Assembly: GCA_002070605.1 (NCBI GenBank)
Contig: MWDO01000016.1
Location: 1-53,097, forward strand
Length of the DNA: 53,097 nt
Source of the DNA: Spirochaetes bacterium ADurb.Bin133
GTDB lineage: Bacteria > Spirochaetota > GWE2-31-10 > MWDO01
Direction of reading: 5' to 3'
Position numbers and translations under genes: made by a program
The notes under the pieces: model-generated
What the model saw: only the letters and a program-made list of their open reading frames with translations
Databases searched by the model: none
What the model was told of the DNA's origin: nothing
In this document: one piece after another, positions 7,997 to 26,078 of the stretch
Position numbering within the stretch: position 1 is the stretch's first letter
How the letters are laid out: every line of letters starts with the position of its first letter

Positions 7997-9550
7997 TTAT
8001 CTTCCCGACTTATTCGATAGTTTTTGAAGAGCTTCAAGATGCTCTTTCTTCTCCTCTATCATTTTATCGGTTAGACGCCAGCTCCAATTGTGAACTCCGC
8101 TTGTTCCGGGCGTATTCATTCGCGACTCGGAGGTTAACCCCAATACGTCCTGCATTAAGAAAACAACCCATTTTGCTTCGGAATTCAGCAATTTTTCTTC
8201 AATTTTAAGAGTTAATTCGTTTAACGAATCCGACCACTCAATTTTATTTTTTATTCCCAAATATTTTAGTATGTCGTTTTGAGCTTTTTCGTTCTGGCTA
8301 AAAAACCATCCGTGAATTACGTCGTTATCGTGAGTTCCGGGGTAAGCTACGCAGTTATAAATATAATTTTCCGGCAAATACGGAGCTTTAGAATTATCTT
8401 GTACGACTCCCTGCGCGTCGGTAAAAGTTCCTTTATTAAACGGCGCGAACTCAAATATCCTCATCCCCGGAAATTCAAAATAATCTCTTAATTCTTCAAC
8501 TTCCTTAGTGATTATTCCCAAATCCTCGGCTATAATAGCCGTTTTAAGTCTTTCAGCCCCGATCTCCTTTTTTATACTGTTAAACAACTCTTTGCCGGGA
8601 GCTTTAACCCATCTACCGTTTATTGCAGTCTGTTCGCCGTATTTTACTTCCCAATACGACTCAAATCCTCTAAAATGATCTATTCTTATACAATCGACAA
8701 GCTTCAATAAATGAGCTATTCTCTTTTTCCACCAATCAAAATCGTTTCTTATCATAACGTCCCATTTGTAATGCGGACTTCCCCACAATTGTCCGGTTTT
8801 TGAGAAATAATCCGGCGGAACTCCGGTTACAATAGTAGGTTTACCATTTGAATCCAGATGAAATAGATTTTGATTAGCCCAAACGTCTGAACTATCGTAA
8901 GCGACGAATATCGGAGCGTCTCCGATAATCATAATTCCGTTGTCGTTTGCGTATTTTTTAAATTTGGTCCACTGTTCGTAGAATTCCCACTGTAAAAATT
9001 TATAAAATTCAGCGTCGTCCAATATCTCTTTGGATAACTCAGATAAATTTTTTCTTAAACGCAGATCTTCTTCCCATATATCCCACGAAGCGCCGTTTTT
9101 ACTATCTTTTATAGCCATAAATATAGCGTAATCGTTTAGCCAAAATCCGTTATCCCTGCAAAATTTTTCATAGCTATCGGGAGGCGATAATTTTATAAAC
9201 CTTTTATACGCTATCCTTAAAATTTTAAAGTTGTGTACGTATATCCCGCCGTAATCCACTCTATCGGGTTCAAATTTTGGATAGTCTTCTAAATCCGATT
9301 CCTTGAGATACCCCTTTTCAATAAGTTTGTCAAAACTTATTATATAAGGCGTTCCGGCAAACGCGGAAAAAGAAGAGTATGGGGAATCGGCATATCCGGT
9401 AGGATTTAGCGGAAGAATTTGAAGGATTTTCTGCCCGTATCGCTTTAACAAATCTATAATTTTGTAAGCCCCCTCTCCCAAATCTCCGCAACCGTATTTT
9501 CCCGGAAACGATGTAGGATGAATCAAAATACCGCTCATTTTCTTATTCAA
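7997..9550 (-). CDS. malQ: 4-alpha-glucanotransferase (amylomaltase)
   Basis: GH77 enzyme that transfers alpha-1,4-glucan segments between maltodextrins in the cytoplasm. The 517 residues show HPTSFPGKYGCGDLG, LPLNPTGYADSPYSSFSAF, IIGDAPIFVAYDSSDVW, TGVPPDYFSKTGQLWGSP, the nucleophile region RIDHFRGF (Asp291), the acid/base IAEDLG (Glu342) and GTHDND (Asp408). There is no signal peptide. It would process maltodextrins released by the surface amylase at 19.3-26 kb. It lies between the FHA gene (38 bases upstream) and rpe. Confidence 0.96.
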   Translation of the reverse strand: MNKKMSGILIHPTSFPGKYGCGDLGEGAYKIIDLLKRYGQKILQILPLNPTGYADSPYSSFSAFAGTPYIISFDKLIEKGYLKESDLEDYPKFEPDRVDYGGIYVHNFKILRIAYKRFIKLSPPDSYEKFCRDNGFWLNDYAIFMAIKDSKNGASWDIWEEDLRLRKNLSELSKEILDDAEFYKFLQWEFYEQWTKFKKYANDNGIMIIGDAPIFVAYDSSDVWANQNLFHLDSNGKPTIVTGVPPDYFSKTGQLWGSPHYKWDVMIRNDFDWWKKRIAHLLKLVDCIRIDHFRGFESYWEVKYGEQTAINGRWVKAPGKELFNSIKKEIGAERLKTAIIAEDLGIITKEVEELRDYFEFPGMRIFEFAPFNKGTFTDAQGVVQDNSKAPYLPENYIYNCVAYPGTHDNDVIHGWFFSQNEKAQNDILKYLGIKNKIEWSDSLNELTLKIEEKLLNSEAKWVVFLMQDVLGLTSESRMNTPGTSGVHNWSWRLTDKMIEEKKEHLEALQKLSNKSGR

Positions 9551-9588
9551 GTTACGCTCCTTAACAATTAAGATTAATATATTTTTTT

Positions 9589-9972
9589 TTAATTATCGCT
9601 TTTTTCTTCAAGAAAAAATCTCAAAATGGTTTTGCCCATCGTTATTCTGTCGCCGTAAGTCAATTGGATTTTCTTTTTTAGCTCTTTACCATTAATAAAG
9701 GTCGAATTTGTCGACAGCAAGTCTTCAATAAAAAACTTCTCGTTTTCGTCGACGGTTATCCTGCAATGCTCTTTGCTTATCAACGGATCTTTTATGATAA
9801 AATCGCAACCGTTTCCTCTCCCTATGACCGAGTCGCGCGACCCGACAACAAAGGATGCTCCTAAAAAATTTGAGGATAAAACCAACAATACCCCCTTTTT
9901 AGATAATCGAGATGAAAATTGAATTTTACTAATATTATTAACTTCCGTATTTAAAGTATCGCATTCAACCAT
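9589..9972 (-). CDS. FHA-domain phosphothreonine-binding protein
   Basis: 127 residues with a C-terminal FHA fold: the loop VIGRGNGCDFII, then LISKEHCRI, then LSTNSTFINGKEL, the three conserved segments of phosphothreonine readers. About 45 residues precede the fold. It has no catalytic domain, so it probably acts as an adaptor for a Ser/Thr kinase encoded elsewhere. It is first in a minus-strand run with malQ and rpe, which may mean phosphorylation-dependent control of carbon use. That link is inference. Confidence 0.88.
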   Translation of the reverse strand: MVECDTLNTEVNNISKIQFSSRLSKKGVLLVLSSNFLGASFVVGSRDSVIGRGNGCDFIIKDPLISKEHCRITVDENEKFFIEDLLSTNSTFINGKELKKKIQLTYGDRITMGKTILRFFLEEKSDN

Positions 9973-19320: not shown

Positions 19321-21939
19321 ATGAAAAAATTTTTATTCATATTATTATTAATCATCGCTATGTTGGGATGCGTTCAGTCCGGAATATTCAATAACGCCGG
19401 CAACAATAAGGGAAATACGATTTCGGATGCCAAATACGGAACCCTCGTAATTAAAAATATCGATAACGGGAAGTCGACAAATATCGATCCGACAAGGTCT
19501 GTCGTTATATCCGACATCAAAACAGCTATGGTAACGGTATCCGGCCGGGGTATGAACGATATATCCGAAAGCGCCGCGGTAGTTAACGGGGCGGGCGAGA
19601 TAAGGGTTGAAAATATTCCCATCGGTAAAAATCGAGTTATATCGGTTCAGGCGAGAACAGACTCGGGAGACATGACCGGTATAGTTATGAGAGGTATAAA
19701 GGATATCGTATCGGGAGATAATACAGTCAATATAAGATGGAGTTCTACGCCCTTGGGCGATACGTTTTACGAATTGTTATATACTCACGATTACGACATC
19801 GGCTCGATGTCGGACGCGACGAGAAGCAATATAACCGCGATAATATCCGGAACAGGCGTTTCTCATCCTTCTTTATTTAACTCAAAGAATTTAGCGGAGG
19901 ACGTCGCCAACGGAACTATGAAGTCGGCTAACGACGCTTCATATAAAATAACTCCGGCGTCGGCCGTTTTCAGCATAAACGGTATTACCAATTTTACAGG
20001 ATTTACCGCTCAAGTAAACGACCCGGCGTCGGCGAAATTATCATCGTCGACAACTCCGATAACTACCGGCGAAAATACGATAACAGGAATAAAACCGGGG
20101 AACTGGGAGTTAGTTATAACCATTGACGGCGGGATTGTATATCGAAGCGGAGTAGTCGCGCTATCGAGCGGAATGCCTTACAATTTTGGAGCTATCGACT
20201 TGTTGGTTTCCGATCCCTATTTTTTACCCGTTAATACGACTTTTGCTGCTTCTCTGGACGTTACTATCGACGTTTCCACTACCGGCGCGTCTATCTATTA
20301 TACTACTAACGGCGTAGATCCTACAGAATCGGATACAAAATATACGGCTCCAATTAAAATAACAGGAACTACGACTTTTAAGGCAAGAGCTTTTAAGACA
20401 AATTATTTATCGTCAAATGTTATAACTAAAACATATACAAAGATCATAAGTTCTGCAATTGGAGAAAATCATCCTTCTACCGGCGCTTTTAGTCCTATGG
20501 ATCTTAACGGCGAAACCGCGGGTTTTGGCTGGGCAACTCAAACGTGGGATTTAGGTTCGCATTTTGCCGGAACGGACGTTACTTTCGCAGTTTATTCCAA
20601 GAATGCGACCAAAGTGTTGCTGGAGATATATGAAACCGAAACAAGCTCGACTAATACTAATAAAGCGTATGGAACGGACGCTCGATACGACTACTGGATG
20701 GAAAAGGGCTCGGATAATATATGGAGAGCCAAAATAGCGGCGGTTCCTGAAAAAACATACTACGCGTTTAGAGTTTGGGGACCTAATTGGACGTTTAATT
20801 CTTCATGGACAAGAGGCAATTCGTCGGCAGGTTTTTTGGCGGACGTTGACGCTAACGGTAATAGATTCAATCCTAACAAGGTTGTATTTGACCCTTATAC
20901 AAGGGAGATATCTCACGACAAAGAGTTTCCTGCAATGGCGGCGGCGGGCGAGAACGGCGGAATGTATGGAACAAGCGGAGCTGAAATAGACGCTGAGCAT
21001 ATCTATTCCGGACCTACTACTACGGGCGGAGTCTCTATAAATAGAAGAAACGTCGATACGGGCAGATGGGTTCCAAAAGGAATAGTCTTAAAACCAACCG
21101 GCAAAACTTTTACTAAACCGACTTTTGCTCAGGAAGCGTCGGTAATATACGAAGCGCACGTTAGAGGAATAACGGCGCATAGTTCAAGTTCAAATTTAGA
21201 GACTATTTTAAACGGAATGGAAGGTTTTGCTACGGTAGTAAACGTTCCGTCTCAATACAGGGGGACTTATAAAGGCGTCGCTTATCTGGCGAAATATCTT
21301 AAAGCGATAGGTATTAATACTATAGAGTTACTGCCCGTTCATGAAACTGAAAACGATATGCTTCCATTCGACGGCAGTCAACCGACTTTGGGGGGCGCTA
21401 AGAACTTTTGGGGATATATGACCTACGGATTTTTTGCTCCGGATAGAAGATACTCTTACGATAAATCTGCCGGCGGACCTACTTCGGAATTCCAAGATAT
21501 GGTTCAAGCGTTAAACGCCGAAGGCATCAAGGTATTCTTGGACGTCGTATTTAACCACACCGGAGAGGGGGGCAACTGGGGACATATGAACGTTACCGGA
21601 TTTGTCTCGATGGGGGGACTCGATTGCGCAGAGTATTATCATTTGATTCCGGGCGGAGATGCGAAAAATTGGCTTGTCGATGGAGCTACAGGTTGCGGCA
21701 ACCAACTTAACTTTTCAAAAACCGTTAATCACAACTTAATAATGGACTCTTTAACTTACTGGATAGATAAAATGGGTATAAGCGGCTATAGATTTGATCT
21801 TGCCGCGGTAATAGGAAGAAAACCCGACCTTCACGCTTGGGAGCCTTCCGATACATATTGGGATAGGGTTAAAGCTTTCTACTCAGATCATCCTACCTTA
21901 ACTGCAATGGCGTCTTTGGGCGCATCTAAAAGCGCGTGA
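19321..21939 (+). CDS. Giant debranching enzyme/amylase lipoprotein, N-terminal part before in-frame TGA
   Basis: Lipobox MLGC (Cys17). Order of domains: an unrecognised N-terminal region (20-270), a chitobiase C-terminal-like repeat with IYYTTNGVDPTESDTKY (about 285-355), a CBM48-like domain (about 365-510) and the first half of a GH13 isoamylase/GlgX-type barrel (from about 590). The latter has YLKAIGINTIELLPVHE, VFLDVVFNHTGEGG and the nucleophile strand GYRFDLAAV (Asp826). The frame then hits TGA at 21937-21939, just before the acid/base strand, which continues in the same frame in the next entry. As it stands this part lacks two of three catalytic residues. The upstream start is ATG with GGGGG six bases before it. 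Confidence 0.85.
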   Translation: MKKFLFILLLIIAMLGCVQSGIFNNAGNNKGNTISDAKYGTLVIKNIDNGKSTNIDPTRSVVISDIKTAMVTVSGRGMNDISESAAVVNGAGEIRVENIPIGKNRVISVQARTDSGDMTGIVMRGIKDIVSGDNTVNIRWSSTPLGDTFYELLYTHDYDIGSMSDATRSNITAIISGTGVSHPSLFNSKNLAEDVANGTMKSANDASYKITPASAVFSINGITNFTGFTAQVNDPASAKLSSSTTPITTGENTITGIKPGNWELVITIDGGIVYRSGVVALSSGMPYNFGAIDLLVSDPYFLPVNTTFAASLDVTIDVSTTGASIYYTTNGVDPTESDTKYTAPIKITGTTTFKARAFKTNYLSSNVITKTYTKIISSAIGENHPSTGAFSPMDLNGETAGFGWATQTWDLGSHFAGTDVTFAVYSKNATKVLLEIYETETSSTNTNKAYGTDARYDYWMEKGSDNIWRAKIAAVPEKTYYAFRVWGPNWTFNSSWTRGNSSAGFLADVDANGNRFNPNKVVFDPYTREISHDKEFPAMAAAGENGGMYGTSGAEIDAEHIYSGPTTTGGVSINRRNVDTGRWVPKGIVLKPTGKTFTKPTFAQEASVIYEAHVRGITAHSSSSNLETILNGMEGFATVVNVPSQYRGTYKGVAYLAKYLKAIGINTIELLPVHETENDMLPFDGSQPTLGGAKNFWGYMTYGFFAPDRRYSYDKSAGGPTSEFQDMVQALNAEGIKVFLDVVFNHTGEGGNWGHMNVTGFVSMGGLDCAEYYHLIPGGDAKNWLVDGATGCGNQLNFSKTVNHNLIMDSLTYWIDKMGISGYRFDLAAVIGRKPDLHAWEPSDTYWDRVKAFYSDHPTLTAMASLGASKSA
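21937..21939 (+). other. In-frame TGA splitting the first GH13 domain
   Basis: The codon series SKSA-TGA-MIAEAWD keeps one reading frame across 2,231 codons. Homologues of the GlgX type normally have Lys or Arg here, directly before the IAEAWD strand, so a CGA-to-TGA transition is the simplest origin. TGA is followed immediately by ATG, which might allow limited reinitiation, although no good ribosome site precedes it. Confidence 0.85.
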
Positions 21940-24900
21940 ATGATCGCCGAAGCGTGGGATATGTGGGGATATCCGGTGGGTATGTTCCCAAGCGGTTGGG
22001 GCGAATGGAACGGTAGATATAGAGACGCTATCAGAAAGTATATGAAAGGCGATACTTCCGGATACGACGGAGTTAGCGTAACCGACGCTTTTCACGGCGA
22101 CTACAACCACTTCAACGATCAAGGGGGACCGCATAAGTCGATTAACTTATTAGTAGCTCACGACGGTTTCACATTAGCCGATCTGGTTAGTTACAATACA
22201 AAGATGAATACGACGCTTGGATGGCCCTTTGGACCGTCGGACGGCGGAAACGATAATAACGATAGTTGGGATTCTAACGGCAATCAAACGTTAAGAAGAC
22301 AAAGGATAAGAAATTTCTGGACCTTCCAAATGTTTAGTCGAGGAACTCCGATGGTAGTCTACGGCGACGAGCTTGCGCGAACTCAAAACGGAAATAACAA
22401 TCCTTACAACATCGATAGCGTTATGACCTGGAATAACTATAATATGATTGATAACGACGCTCCGCATACCGAATCTACAGGAAGCTCGTCGGGATATCAC
22501 AATAATATCGGAACGGATGGAAAACTTGATAATTCGAACAATATATTTTTATTTTCGACTAATCTGATGAAACTAAGAAGAGATACGACTGCGCTTCACG
22601 CTAGCAATTATGCCGAAGAGATTGGTTACGCAAGCGAAACCGGCGGAACTTTATCGTCGGGGGCGAGAGCTATAAGAATATGGCGAGGCGATTTCCTAAT
22701 ATGCTCGAATATGTGGACTGAGACAATTAATTTTACATTACCGGCGTTAGACTCGGGATATTCATGGGTAAGAATAGTAGATACGGCGTCGTGGGCTGAA
22801 TCGGATAATAACTACTGGGACGTAGAAGACGGCGCGGTTATCTCCGGAACTTACGGAGTTAACGCATGGTCTATCGCGGTATTTAAAAAAGCTTCGGTAG
22901 TCGAAACGCCGAATATTAAAACGACGCAGGGCTTTAGCGGAACTTTTACAGTTACCGCTACCTGCGCTACTCCGGGGGCTACTATCAGATATACTATCGA
23001 CGGAACAGAGCCGATAGAGACAAGTCCTGCGTTTACAAGTTTCGATATAACGTCGACTACGACCTTTAAAGCGAAGGCGTTTAAAGGCGGCATGAGATCG
23101 TCTAATACGGCGACGGCGGTCTACTCCAATACTTCCAAGGTAGAAAAGCCGGTATTGTCTCTCGGTAGTTCAAAATTTTGGAACGAAGTAACTATATTTG
23201 CCTTTACGGATACCACAGGCGATACCATATATTATACGCTGGACGATACAGATCCTACGACGGACGATACGGAATTTCCTTCGACAGGCGTTACGATAAA
23301 CGCGACCGATACGCTAAAAGTAAAAGCGTTTAAAACGGGATTAACTCCTTCCGATACGGTTACCGCTACTTATACAAAACAAAGCGATACCTCTTATACT
23401 GAAGATCCGTATGGAGTAATGCTACAGGGATTTCACTGGGATAGCGCAAGCGATAGTAAAAACTGGTATAATACCGTTAGAGGCAATAAGACGGATATTA
23501 AAGCCAACTTTGAATATATCTGGCTACCTCCGCCGAGTTCTACTCCGAGTTTTTCTAAGCAAGGATATATTCCTAAAGCTCTTAACGATCTCAATTCTTA
23601 TTACGGGTCGGCCGCAGAGCTAGAACAGTTGATTAGCGACCTATCGCCCGATACTAAAGCTATCGCCGATATAGTCGTCAATCATAGAGGGGGAACGAGC
23701 GGTTGGGGCGACTTTGAGAATCCAAGGTGGGACGAGGATTACGCGTCTATCGCTTCCAACGACGAGGGCTTTACCGACGTCAATTCGGATATGTATAATT
23801 GGAGCGGTCCGAAAGGCGCACCCGATTCCGGAGAAAACTATGCCGCCGCGCGAGACTTAGATCATACTAGCGCCAACGTTCAGAAAGGTATTGAAACTTG
23901 GATGAATAGCGTCCTAAAAGACGCCGGATTTGTCGGTTGGCGATACGACTACGTTAAAGGGTTTGACGGAAAATATGTCGGTCGATACAATACCAAGACA
24001 AGCGCCGCTTTCTCTGTCGGAGAATATTGGCCTACAAGCGGGTTTAACGCAAACGATTGGTCGACGGCAATAAATAGCTGGGTTGGAAGAACAACTATTG
24101 ACGGAGGACAAAGATCAAGAGTATTTGATTTTGTTTTAAAAGGCAATCTTAACTACGCTTTTGGATATTTCGCGGCGCCGTCTGAAGATAAAACCGATAG
24201 TTACTGGAATATGGCGCTACTGGCGGATAGTTCTAATATATTCAGATCGCATCCTGCCGACGCGGTAACTTTTGTCGATAATCACGATACCGGCAGTTCG
24301 CAAAGACATTGGGAACTTGACCCCAACGACGTTCCTCTCGCTTATACGTTTATACTGACTCATCCGGGGTATCCGTCTGTCGCATATCAGCATTATTTTA
24401 GCTCGACTCCGGTAGCCGGAACGTCCAAAACTTTGAAGCAGCACATAGAGTATCTTATTCAACTTCGAAAAGATGTCGGTATAAGATACGACGCTTCGAC
24501 AAGCAATGGTAAACTTACCATTTTAGCTTCGACGACTACAAATTACGCGGCTAAGATAACCGGCAATAACGGAGAGATAGTCGTTAAAATCGGCGGAGAC
24601 AGTTGGAGTCCGACGGGCGAGGGTTACGACGGCAACTCTCCGATCTATTACGGTACTAATTTTGCTATCTGGAAAAAAGGAGTCGCCGGACCGAAATTTA
24701 ATTTCTATATTAAAGTTCCCGATTGGGCTAACAATGCTCAACCGGTAATATCTTATAACGGCAATGGAACAAACGTAACAAATTCCGCCGACTTTACAAA
24801 AGTCAACGACGCTCTAGCTTGGAATCATCCGAATCAATGGGCTAAACTTACGACAACGGTTAGCGATCCAACCGGAACAATATACTTTATGTTCAAATTT

Positions 24901-26016
24901 TGGCAAGGTAGCGATGAAAATCAGATTTACGCCGCAGATAATGGAACGAATTGGTTTGCCGAGACTACAACGACCGGCAATATATTTGTAGATTGTACAA
25001 GTCCGACGTTTATTTCAGGAACCGGTCCTAAGAAATTCTGGATCGATCCATCTTCTAAAGTTACCGACAAGTCGCCTTACGCCGGTCTCGATAGTTTGAC
25101 CATATCTAGTGGAACTCTAACTCCTACTTTTTCAAGAACTACTACTTCCTACGCGGCGATGGTTGCAAACGACGTTTCCTCTATAACTTTTACGCCGACT
25201 GCGACTTTCGCGACAAACTCTGTTATAAAACTATACGATGCAAGTACGGATACCACGACCGACGTCAATTCGGGAAGCGCCTCGACTTCGCGCAACCTAG
25301 CCGTTGGAGCTAATACGTTCAAACTAACTTGCGAAGTTGCAGACGATTCGACGATCAAAAATACTTATACGGTTGTGATAACAAGACAAGGCGCGTCGGG
25401 ATATACAAACACAATAACGCTCGACGGAGCAGCTTCAGATTGGGATTCTGCAAAAGAAAAATTTACAATATCTGATACTAAAGAGCTCTATGTAACGTGG
25501 GATACTGATAATATTTATTTTGCATTCAACAGCGAAGCCATGAATGTTACCAATAAAGTTTTTTATGTCGCTTTAAATACTTCTGATACGTCAAACGATG
25601 GAAGTACGGCTATACCTTACGAACAATGGTTTACCGGAAGTACGGTAAATACTCCTATAAAAGTAAAATATGTTTATTTCTTTAAGTGGAACTCAGGTAT
25701 TGAAAAGTATAAATTAACATACTCATCGGGGGCTTGGAGCGGTAGAACTTCTACTACTGAAACTGCAGAATTTTCGACAGGGACATTTTCAGAATATAAG
25801 ATACCAAGGTCTTCTATAGGAAATCCATCAGGAAAAATATACATTATGACATACGCAAAATATTTAGATGGTAATGGCGGATGGGGCAATTTATTTGGCT
25901 CGGCGCCTTTAAATAGCGTTGCAACCGGGCCGAATGACAAAACATTAACAAAATATTATCAATTTGACCTTTCGTCTACTTCTGATCCGGTATCGCAAAA
26001 TCCGGTAAGACCATAA
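21940..26016 (+). CDS. Giant debranching enzyme/amylase lipoprotein, C-terminal part after in-frame TGA
   Basis: This 1,358-codon continuation holds the rest of the first GH13 domain: MIAEAWD (acid/base Glu4) and LLVAHDGFT (Asp75), to about residue 320. It then has two chitobiase-type repeats (323-395, 401-480) and a second, complete GH13 alpha-amylase (490-905) with VMLQGFHWD, IADIVVNHRGG, GWRYDYVKGF (Asp670), SVGEYWP (Glu695) and VTFVDNHDT (Asp783). Next come a starch-binding-like domain (920-1030), a cadherin-like sandwich (about 1055-1145) and a C-terminal beta domain (1150-1340). It has no signal peptide of its own, so it is the second half of the lipoprotein rather than a separate gene. 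Without suppression of the TGA it would stay cytoplasmic or unmade. Confidence 0.85.
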   Translation: MIAEAWDMWGYPVGMFPSGWGEWNGRYRDAIRKYMKGDTSGYDGVSVTDAFHGDYNHFNDQGGPHKSINLLVAHDGFTLADLVSYNTKMNTTLGWPFGPSDGGNDNNDSWDSNGNQTLRRQRIRNFWTFQMFSRGTPMVVYGDELARTQNGNNNPYNIDSVMTWNNYNMIDNDAPHTESTGSSSGYHNNIGTDGKLDNSNNIFLFSTNLMKLRRDTTALHASNYAEEIGYASETGGTLSSGARAIRIWRGDFLICSNMWTETINFTLPALDSGYSWVRIVDTASWAESDNNYWDVEDGAVISGTYGVNAWSIAVFKKASVVETPNIKTTQGFSGTFTVTATCATPGATIRYTIDGTEPIETSPAFTSFDITSTTTFKAKAFKGGMRSSNTATAVYSNTSKVEKPVLSLGSSKFWNEVTIFAFTDTTGDTIYYTLDDTDPTTDDTEFPSTGVTINATDTLKVKAFKTGLTPSDTVTATYTKQSDTSYTEDPYGVMLQGFHWDSASDSKNWYNTVRGNKTDIKANFEYIWLPPPSSTPSFSKQGYIPKALNDLNSYYGSAAELEQLISDLSPDTKAIADIVVNHRGGTSGWGDFENPRWDEDYASIASNDEGFTDVNSDMYNWSGPKGAPDSGENYAAARDLDHTSANVQKGIETWMNSVLKDAGFVGWRYDYVKGFDGKYVGRYNTKTSAAFSVGEYWPTSGFNANDWSTAINSWVGRTTIDGGQRSRVFDFVLKGNLNYAFGYFAAPSEDKTDSYWNMALLADSSNIFRSHPADAVTFVDNHDTGSSQRHWELDPNDVPLAYTFILTHPGYPSVAYQHYFSSTPVAGTSKTLKQHIEYLIQLRKDVGIRYDASTSNGKLTILASTTTNYAAKITGNNGEIVVKIGGDSWSPTGEGYDGNSPIYYGTNFAIWKKGVAGPKFNFYIKVPDWANNAQPVISYNGNGTNVTNSADFTKVNDALAWNHPNQWAKLTTTVSDPTGTIYFMFKFWQGSDENQIYAADNGTNWFAETTTTGNIFVDCTSPTFISGTGPKKFWIDPSSKVTDKSPYAGLDSLTISSGTLTPTFSRTTTSYAAMVANDVSSITFTPTATFATNSVIKLYDASTDTTTDVNSGSASTSRNLAVGANTFKLTCEVADDSTIKNTYTVVITRQGASGYTNTITLDGAASDWDSAKEKFTISDTKELYVTWDTDNIYFAFNSEAMNVTNKVFYVALNTSDTSNDGSTAIPYEQWFTGSTVNTPIKVKYVYFFKWNSGIEKYKLTYSSGAWSGRTSTTETAEFSTGTFSEYKIPRSSIGNPSGKIYIMTYAKYLDGNGGWGNLFGSAPLNSVATGPNDKTLTKYYQFDLSSTSDPVSQNPVRP

Positions 26017-26027
26017 AAATCTTATTT

Positions 26028-26058
26028 AAAACGGCGGGGAGCGAGTCCCCGCCGTTTT
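26028..26058. terminator. Bidirectional terminator between amylase and tlpA-like genes
   Basis: A perfect 13-bp stem, AAAACGGCGGGGA / TCCCCGCCGTTTT, with the five-base loop GCGAG, has T runs on both strands. It sits between two converging gene ends (26016 and 26079) and can serve both. Confidence 0.85.
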
Positions 26059-26078
26059 GTTTGTCAATCAATCCCAAC

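Follow-up and report, generated by a model that had tools for sequence, protein, structure and literature searches.

An in-frame TGA in a GH13 amylase lipoprotein gene of Spirochaetes bacterium ADurb.Bin133 looks like a very recent nonsense mutation, or else an error of assembly, rather than a new reading of the code

Background

Bacterial populations commonly contain genuine nonsense mutations, random consensus errors that happen to yield a stop codon are rarer, and relaxed constraint, while typical of older pseudogenes, is not needed in a fresh one. Genetic codes in which UGA is read as tryptophan are characterised by the use of TGA for numerous conserved Trp residues but not as a stop, and by a tRNA-Trp with either the anticodon UCA or the anticodon CCA on a stem of four base pairs, often accompanied by loss of release factor 2 (RF2). 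Spirochaetes are not among the bacteria with UGA-to-Trp codes listed in PMC8629427. In E. coli, the exchange G24A in tRNA-Trp (the Hirsh suppressor) raises UGA reading, and anticodon stems of 4 bp in tRNA-Trp have a like effect (PMC13092985).

The gene considered here lies in a window of 53,097 nucleotides (the whole stretch of DNA that was analysed, contig MWDO01000016.1) from a draft assembly of 103 contigs with a completeness of 95.6%. Its product resembles the GlgX/isoamylase-type GH13 debranching enzymes (TIGR02100) in that, with the TGA read as W, residues 407-1157 give one continuous match of 364 bits. However, its score stays below the GlgX equivalog cut-off (640.9 bits), and in contrast to GlgX the product is predicted to be an exported lipoprotein in which a second GH13 alpha-amylase and CHB_HEX domains are joined to the first enzyme.

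The interrupted frame

The frame starts with the ATG at 19321, meets a TGA at 21937-21939 and is then open to the TAA at 26014-26016, so that the interrupted gene (19321-26016) comprises 2,231 codons, 872 before the TGA and 1,358 after it. At the stop frequency of the window, the probability that the latter are open by chance is about 2e-36. The TGA is the sole break in the frame, and no second lesion was seen. The gene consists of the following parts:

19321..21939, + strand: 5′ part of the gene, with a lipoprotein signal (MKKFLFILLLIIAMLGC), a CHB_HEX_C/Fn3_assoc domain and the first GH13 domain as far as a point shortly ahead of the catalytic strand bearing the acid/base Glu; 872 codons, ending at the TGA
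21937..21939, + strand: the in-frame TGA, which is TGG in the two closest orthologues
21940..26016, + strand: 3′ part of the gene, with the remainder of the first GH13 domain, then Isoamylase_C, a pair of CHB_HEX_C domains, a second GH13 alpha-amylase with Alpha-amyl_C2, and a Cadherin-like domain

Upstream of the 5′ part there is a ribosome-binding site (GAGGGGGA); for the 3′ part, which begins with an ATG abutting the TGA, neither an evident Shine-Dalgarno sequence nor a signal peptide was found. The TGA lies four residues ahead of the acid/base Glu of the first GH13 domain (TGA-M-I-A-E-A-W-D), and the catalytic motifs GYRFD and IAEAWD are both encoded in the interrupted gene. An earlier note on this DNA had described one frame of this length with a single TGA in a GlgX-like GH13 domain, and the continuous match of the two halves to TIGR02100 bears this out; the ATG directly following the TGA (TGAATG) goes unmentioned there.

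Ancestral codon and homologues

Comparison with 100 related genomes yielded two close orthologues, both with TGG (Trp) at the site. The first, from an uncultured Spirochaetes MAG of the same genus (G001, JAGOCL010000019.1), is 90% identical over the first GH13 region and has an unbroken frame of 2,507 codons; it shares the domain order and the lipoprotein start with the window gene but differs from it in carrying TGG in place of TGA and in having a different and longer C-terminus. The second, from a genome of the same order (G004), is 80% identical, with an unbroken frame of 1,975 codons. The simplest history is therefore a single G-to-A transition that turned TGG into TGA, and not the change from CGA that had been proposed in the earlier note on the assumption of an ancestral Lys or Arg, which does not hold for this lineage.

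More distant homologues have K, E or R at this position, always encoded by a sense codon, and this includes an intact paralogue in the source genome (C11:28331-32683; 1,450 codons, 59% identity) which has its own lipoprotein-like signal. Among the relatives examined there is none with TGA at the site, and none of the homologues compared has a Cys there or a split version of the gene. The stop thus falls within a conserved domain that is uninterrupted in the orthologues, as in bacterial pseudogenes with a single nonsense codon, with which the locus also has in common the single point change to a stop, the intact relatives and the intact paralogue in the same genome.

Stop-codon use, release factor and tRNAs

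In 853 kb sampled from the 2.99 Mb source genome, TGA terminates 78 of 522 open reading frames of at least 200 codons and is thus, as had been stated before, a real but minority stop codon. Beyond the TGA, four of these 78 frames, the amylase frame included, have at least 60 open in-frame codons. The other three extensions look like ordinary neighbouring genes: one pair consists of two complete genes of the LptF/LptG type, in another an HDOD gene is followed by a FolD-type gene, and in the last a DUF4956 gene follows an open reading frame without a Pfam match. Of the 78 TGA-ended frames in the sampled 853 kb, none but the amylase frame was thus found to belong to a gene interrupted by TGA.

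RF2 is present in the source genome above the curated cut-off. In its gene prfB (G000:C77:1700-3400), the CTTTGA motif usual for programmed frameshifting appears to be missing, and the frame is open from an in-frame ATG.

The source genome gave 40 tRNA matches. The only Trp gene found has the anticodon CCA, and the anticodon UCA occurs in none of the tRNA genes read. The anticodon stem of this tRNA-Trp is normal, with five pairs, and its D-stem carries a U11-A24 pair (numbered by hand on the sequence); A24 is common to the tRNA-Trp of G001 and G004. Seven clustered tRNA genes (Pro, Arg, His, Arg, Lys, Leu, Gly) were also seen at G000:C24:20917-21601. Neither in the stop-codon use of the sampled 853 kb nor in the tRNA genes read and RF2 does the genome conform to a UGA-to-Trp code.

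With respect to selenocysteine, the genes for which had been suggested as targets of a search (selC, selA, selB), the 95.6% complete assembly yielded no match to selA or selD, only other translation GTPases below the cut-off for selB, and no tRNA-Sec above the gathering score. Likewise, RNA folding downstream of the UGA is no better than in shuffled sequences (z -0.18), so that none of three marks of a selenoprotein gene (machinery, Cys or Sec in homologues, stem-loop) was found.

Selective constraint on either side of the TGA

Between the window and G001, dN/dS amounts to 0.119 upstream of the TGA and 0.112 downstream of it, in line with the earlier observation that the downstream part is both open and conserved. 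Downstream changes, polarised by the single outgroup G004, comprise 37 nonsynonymous and 66 synonymous ones on the window branch as against 35 and 62, respectively, on that of G001 (Fisher P = 1), and amino-acid replacements are not elevated on the former. Had the downstream part been in neutral drift for 10% of the window branch, the probability of so low a number of changes would be 0.017, as compared to 0.065 for 7%, and drift over at least 10% is accordingly rejected. Since constraint is equal on both sides and amino-acid changes are not in excess, any inactivation would have to be younger than about a tenth of the window branch, a bound which is approximate because one outgroup was used and its synonymous sites are saturated. 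As constraint has not been lost, the break is young, or not real, or read through. The absence of measurable decay sets the gene apart from known single-nonsense pseudogenes and implies that the break is either of very recent origin or not real.

Explanations for the in-frame TGA

The three options that the earlier note had left side by side, i.e. a recent break, a sequence error and read-through, were aptly chosen, its CGA origin and its selenocysteine gene search apart. Of these, a recent nonsense mutation appears most likely, followed by an assembly error, with leaky decoding as Trp in a minor place.

According to the first, to which we assign a probability of roughly 60%, the TGA is a recent and non-programmed nonsense mutation in the sampled strain. 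One G-to-A transition from TGG to TGA would have inactivated, or nearly so, a large secreted two-domain amylase/debranching lipoprotein. RF2 would terminate translation at the UGA and leave a lipoprotein of 872 residues with half a TIM barrel and without the acid/base residue, and any product begun at the ATG after the TGA would have no export signal and remain cytosolic. Because the intact paralogue persists, such a loss may be tolerated. Against this, an error in a draft of 103 contigs would look identical, and an undecayed downstream part is equally to be expected from read-through.

Less likely, but still of appreciable probability, is that the TGA is a consensus error or a minority strain variant in the assembly, the gene being intact in cells of this species, with TGG at the site. 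A lone base without any second lesion in 2,231 codons, the maintained constraint, the draft state of the genome and the fact that this is the sole TGA break among the 78 sampled TGA-ended frames are all consistent with it. Nothing speaks directly against it; what favours a mutation that is real in living cells is the higher frequency of genuine nonsense mutations in bacteria as compared to errors that create a stop.

That the normal tRNA-Trp(CCA) misreads UGA as Trp, yielding some full-length protein and so keeping the downstream part under selection, seems improbable. The replaced residue is the very one that near-cognate reading of UGA would insert, the U11-A24 pair is as in the E. coli suppressor tRNA with the Hirsh exchange G24A (PMC13092985), and constraint downstream is indeed kept. 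However, A24 also occurs in G001 and G004, which are free of TGA at the site, so that it did not evolve for such a purpose; moreover, the anticodon stem, at five pairs, is longer than the 4-bp stems described in PMC13092985, RF2 is encoded in the genome, structure past the TGA is no better than in shuffles, and the relatives examined have no TGA at the site. The A24 of tRNA-Trp possibly leaves room for a basal leak at UGA, yet it is inherited and unlinked to the amylase site. Slightly more doubtful still is the stronger version, by which the TGA would be tolerated because this Hirsh-like tRNA-Trp reads it usefully, giving a mix of truncated and full-length lipoprotein; if true, the locus would amount to a natural experiment on how UGA is misread in a spirochaete with an A24 tRNA-Trp.

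Very improbable is a pair of genuine genes, coupled through TGAATG by re-initiation and coding for two separately working polypeptides. The ATG adjoins the TGA and its Met is conserved, but this conservation comes from the strand motif MIAEAWD, to which the Met belongs in homologues without a break. In addition, the split would run through a single catalytic domain, the 3′ part has no signal peptide and no evident Shine-Dalgarno sequence, and no homologue compared is split; judged from the sequence, the abutment of TGA and ATG is a by-product and not a design.

Programmed recoding, be it selenocysteine insertion or a code of this lineage in which UGA has become a sense codon, has next to no probability, as the open frame before and after one TGA is outweighed by the lack of selA and selD and of selB and tRNA-Sec above the cut-offs, by homologous residues that are Trp, Lys, Glu or Arg and never Cys, by TGA ending 78 long frames with no other sampled gene found broken, by the presence of RF2, by the lack of a UCA anticodon among the tRNA genes read, and by a list of UGA-to-Trp codes without spirochaetes (PMC8629427).

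For annotation, the two open reading frames are best entered as a single interrupted gene, while the site is unfit to be cited as a case of recoding; beyond annotation its importance is small.

Surroundings and variation of the gene

Directly 3′ of the gene (window 26031-26061), a GC-rich inverted repeat (CGGCGGGGAGCGAGTCCCCGCCG) and the T-rich stretch behind it together resemble an intrinsic terminator. A scan of viral contigs with the interrupted region gave no match. Thiocystis, Niveibacterium and Propionibacteriaceae have homologues of the first GH13 domain with identities of 49-58%, a distribution suggestive of horizontal transfer for amylases of this type. The C-termini of the window gene and its orthologue in G001 diverge sharply (window 25650-26016 versus about 8700-9633 of the G001 locus), the latter being some 276 codons longer with an additional CHB_HEX_C-like stretch, and this difference at the 3′ end suggests the gain or loss of a domain.
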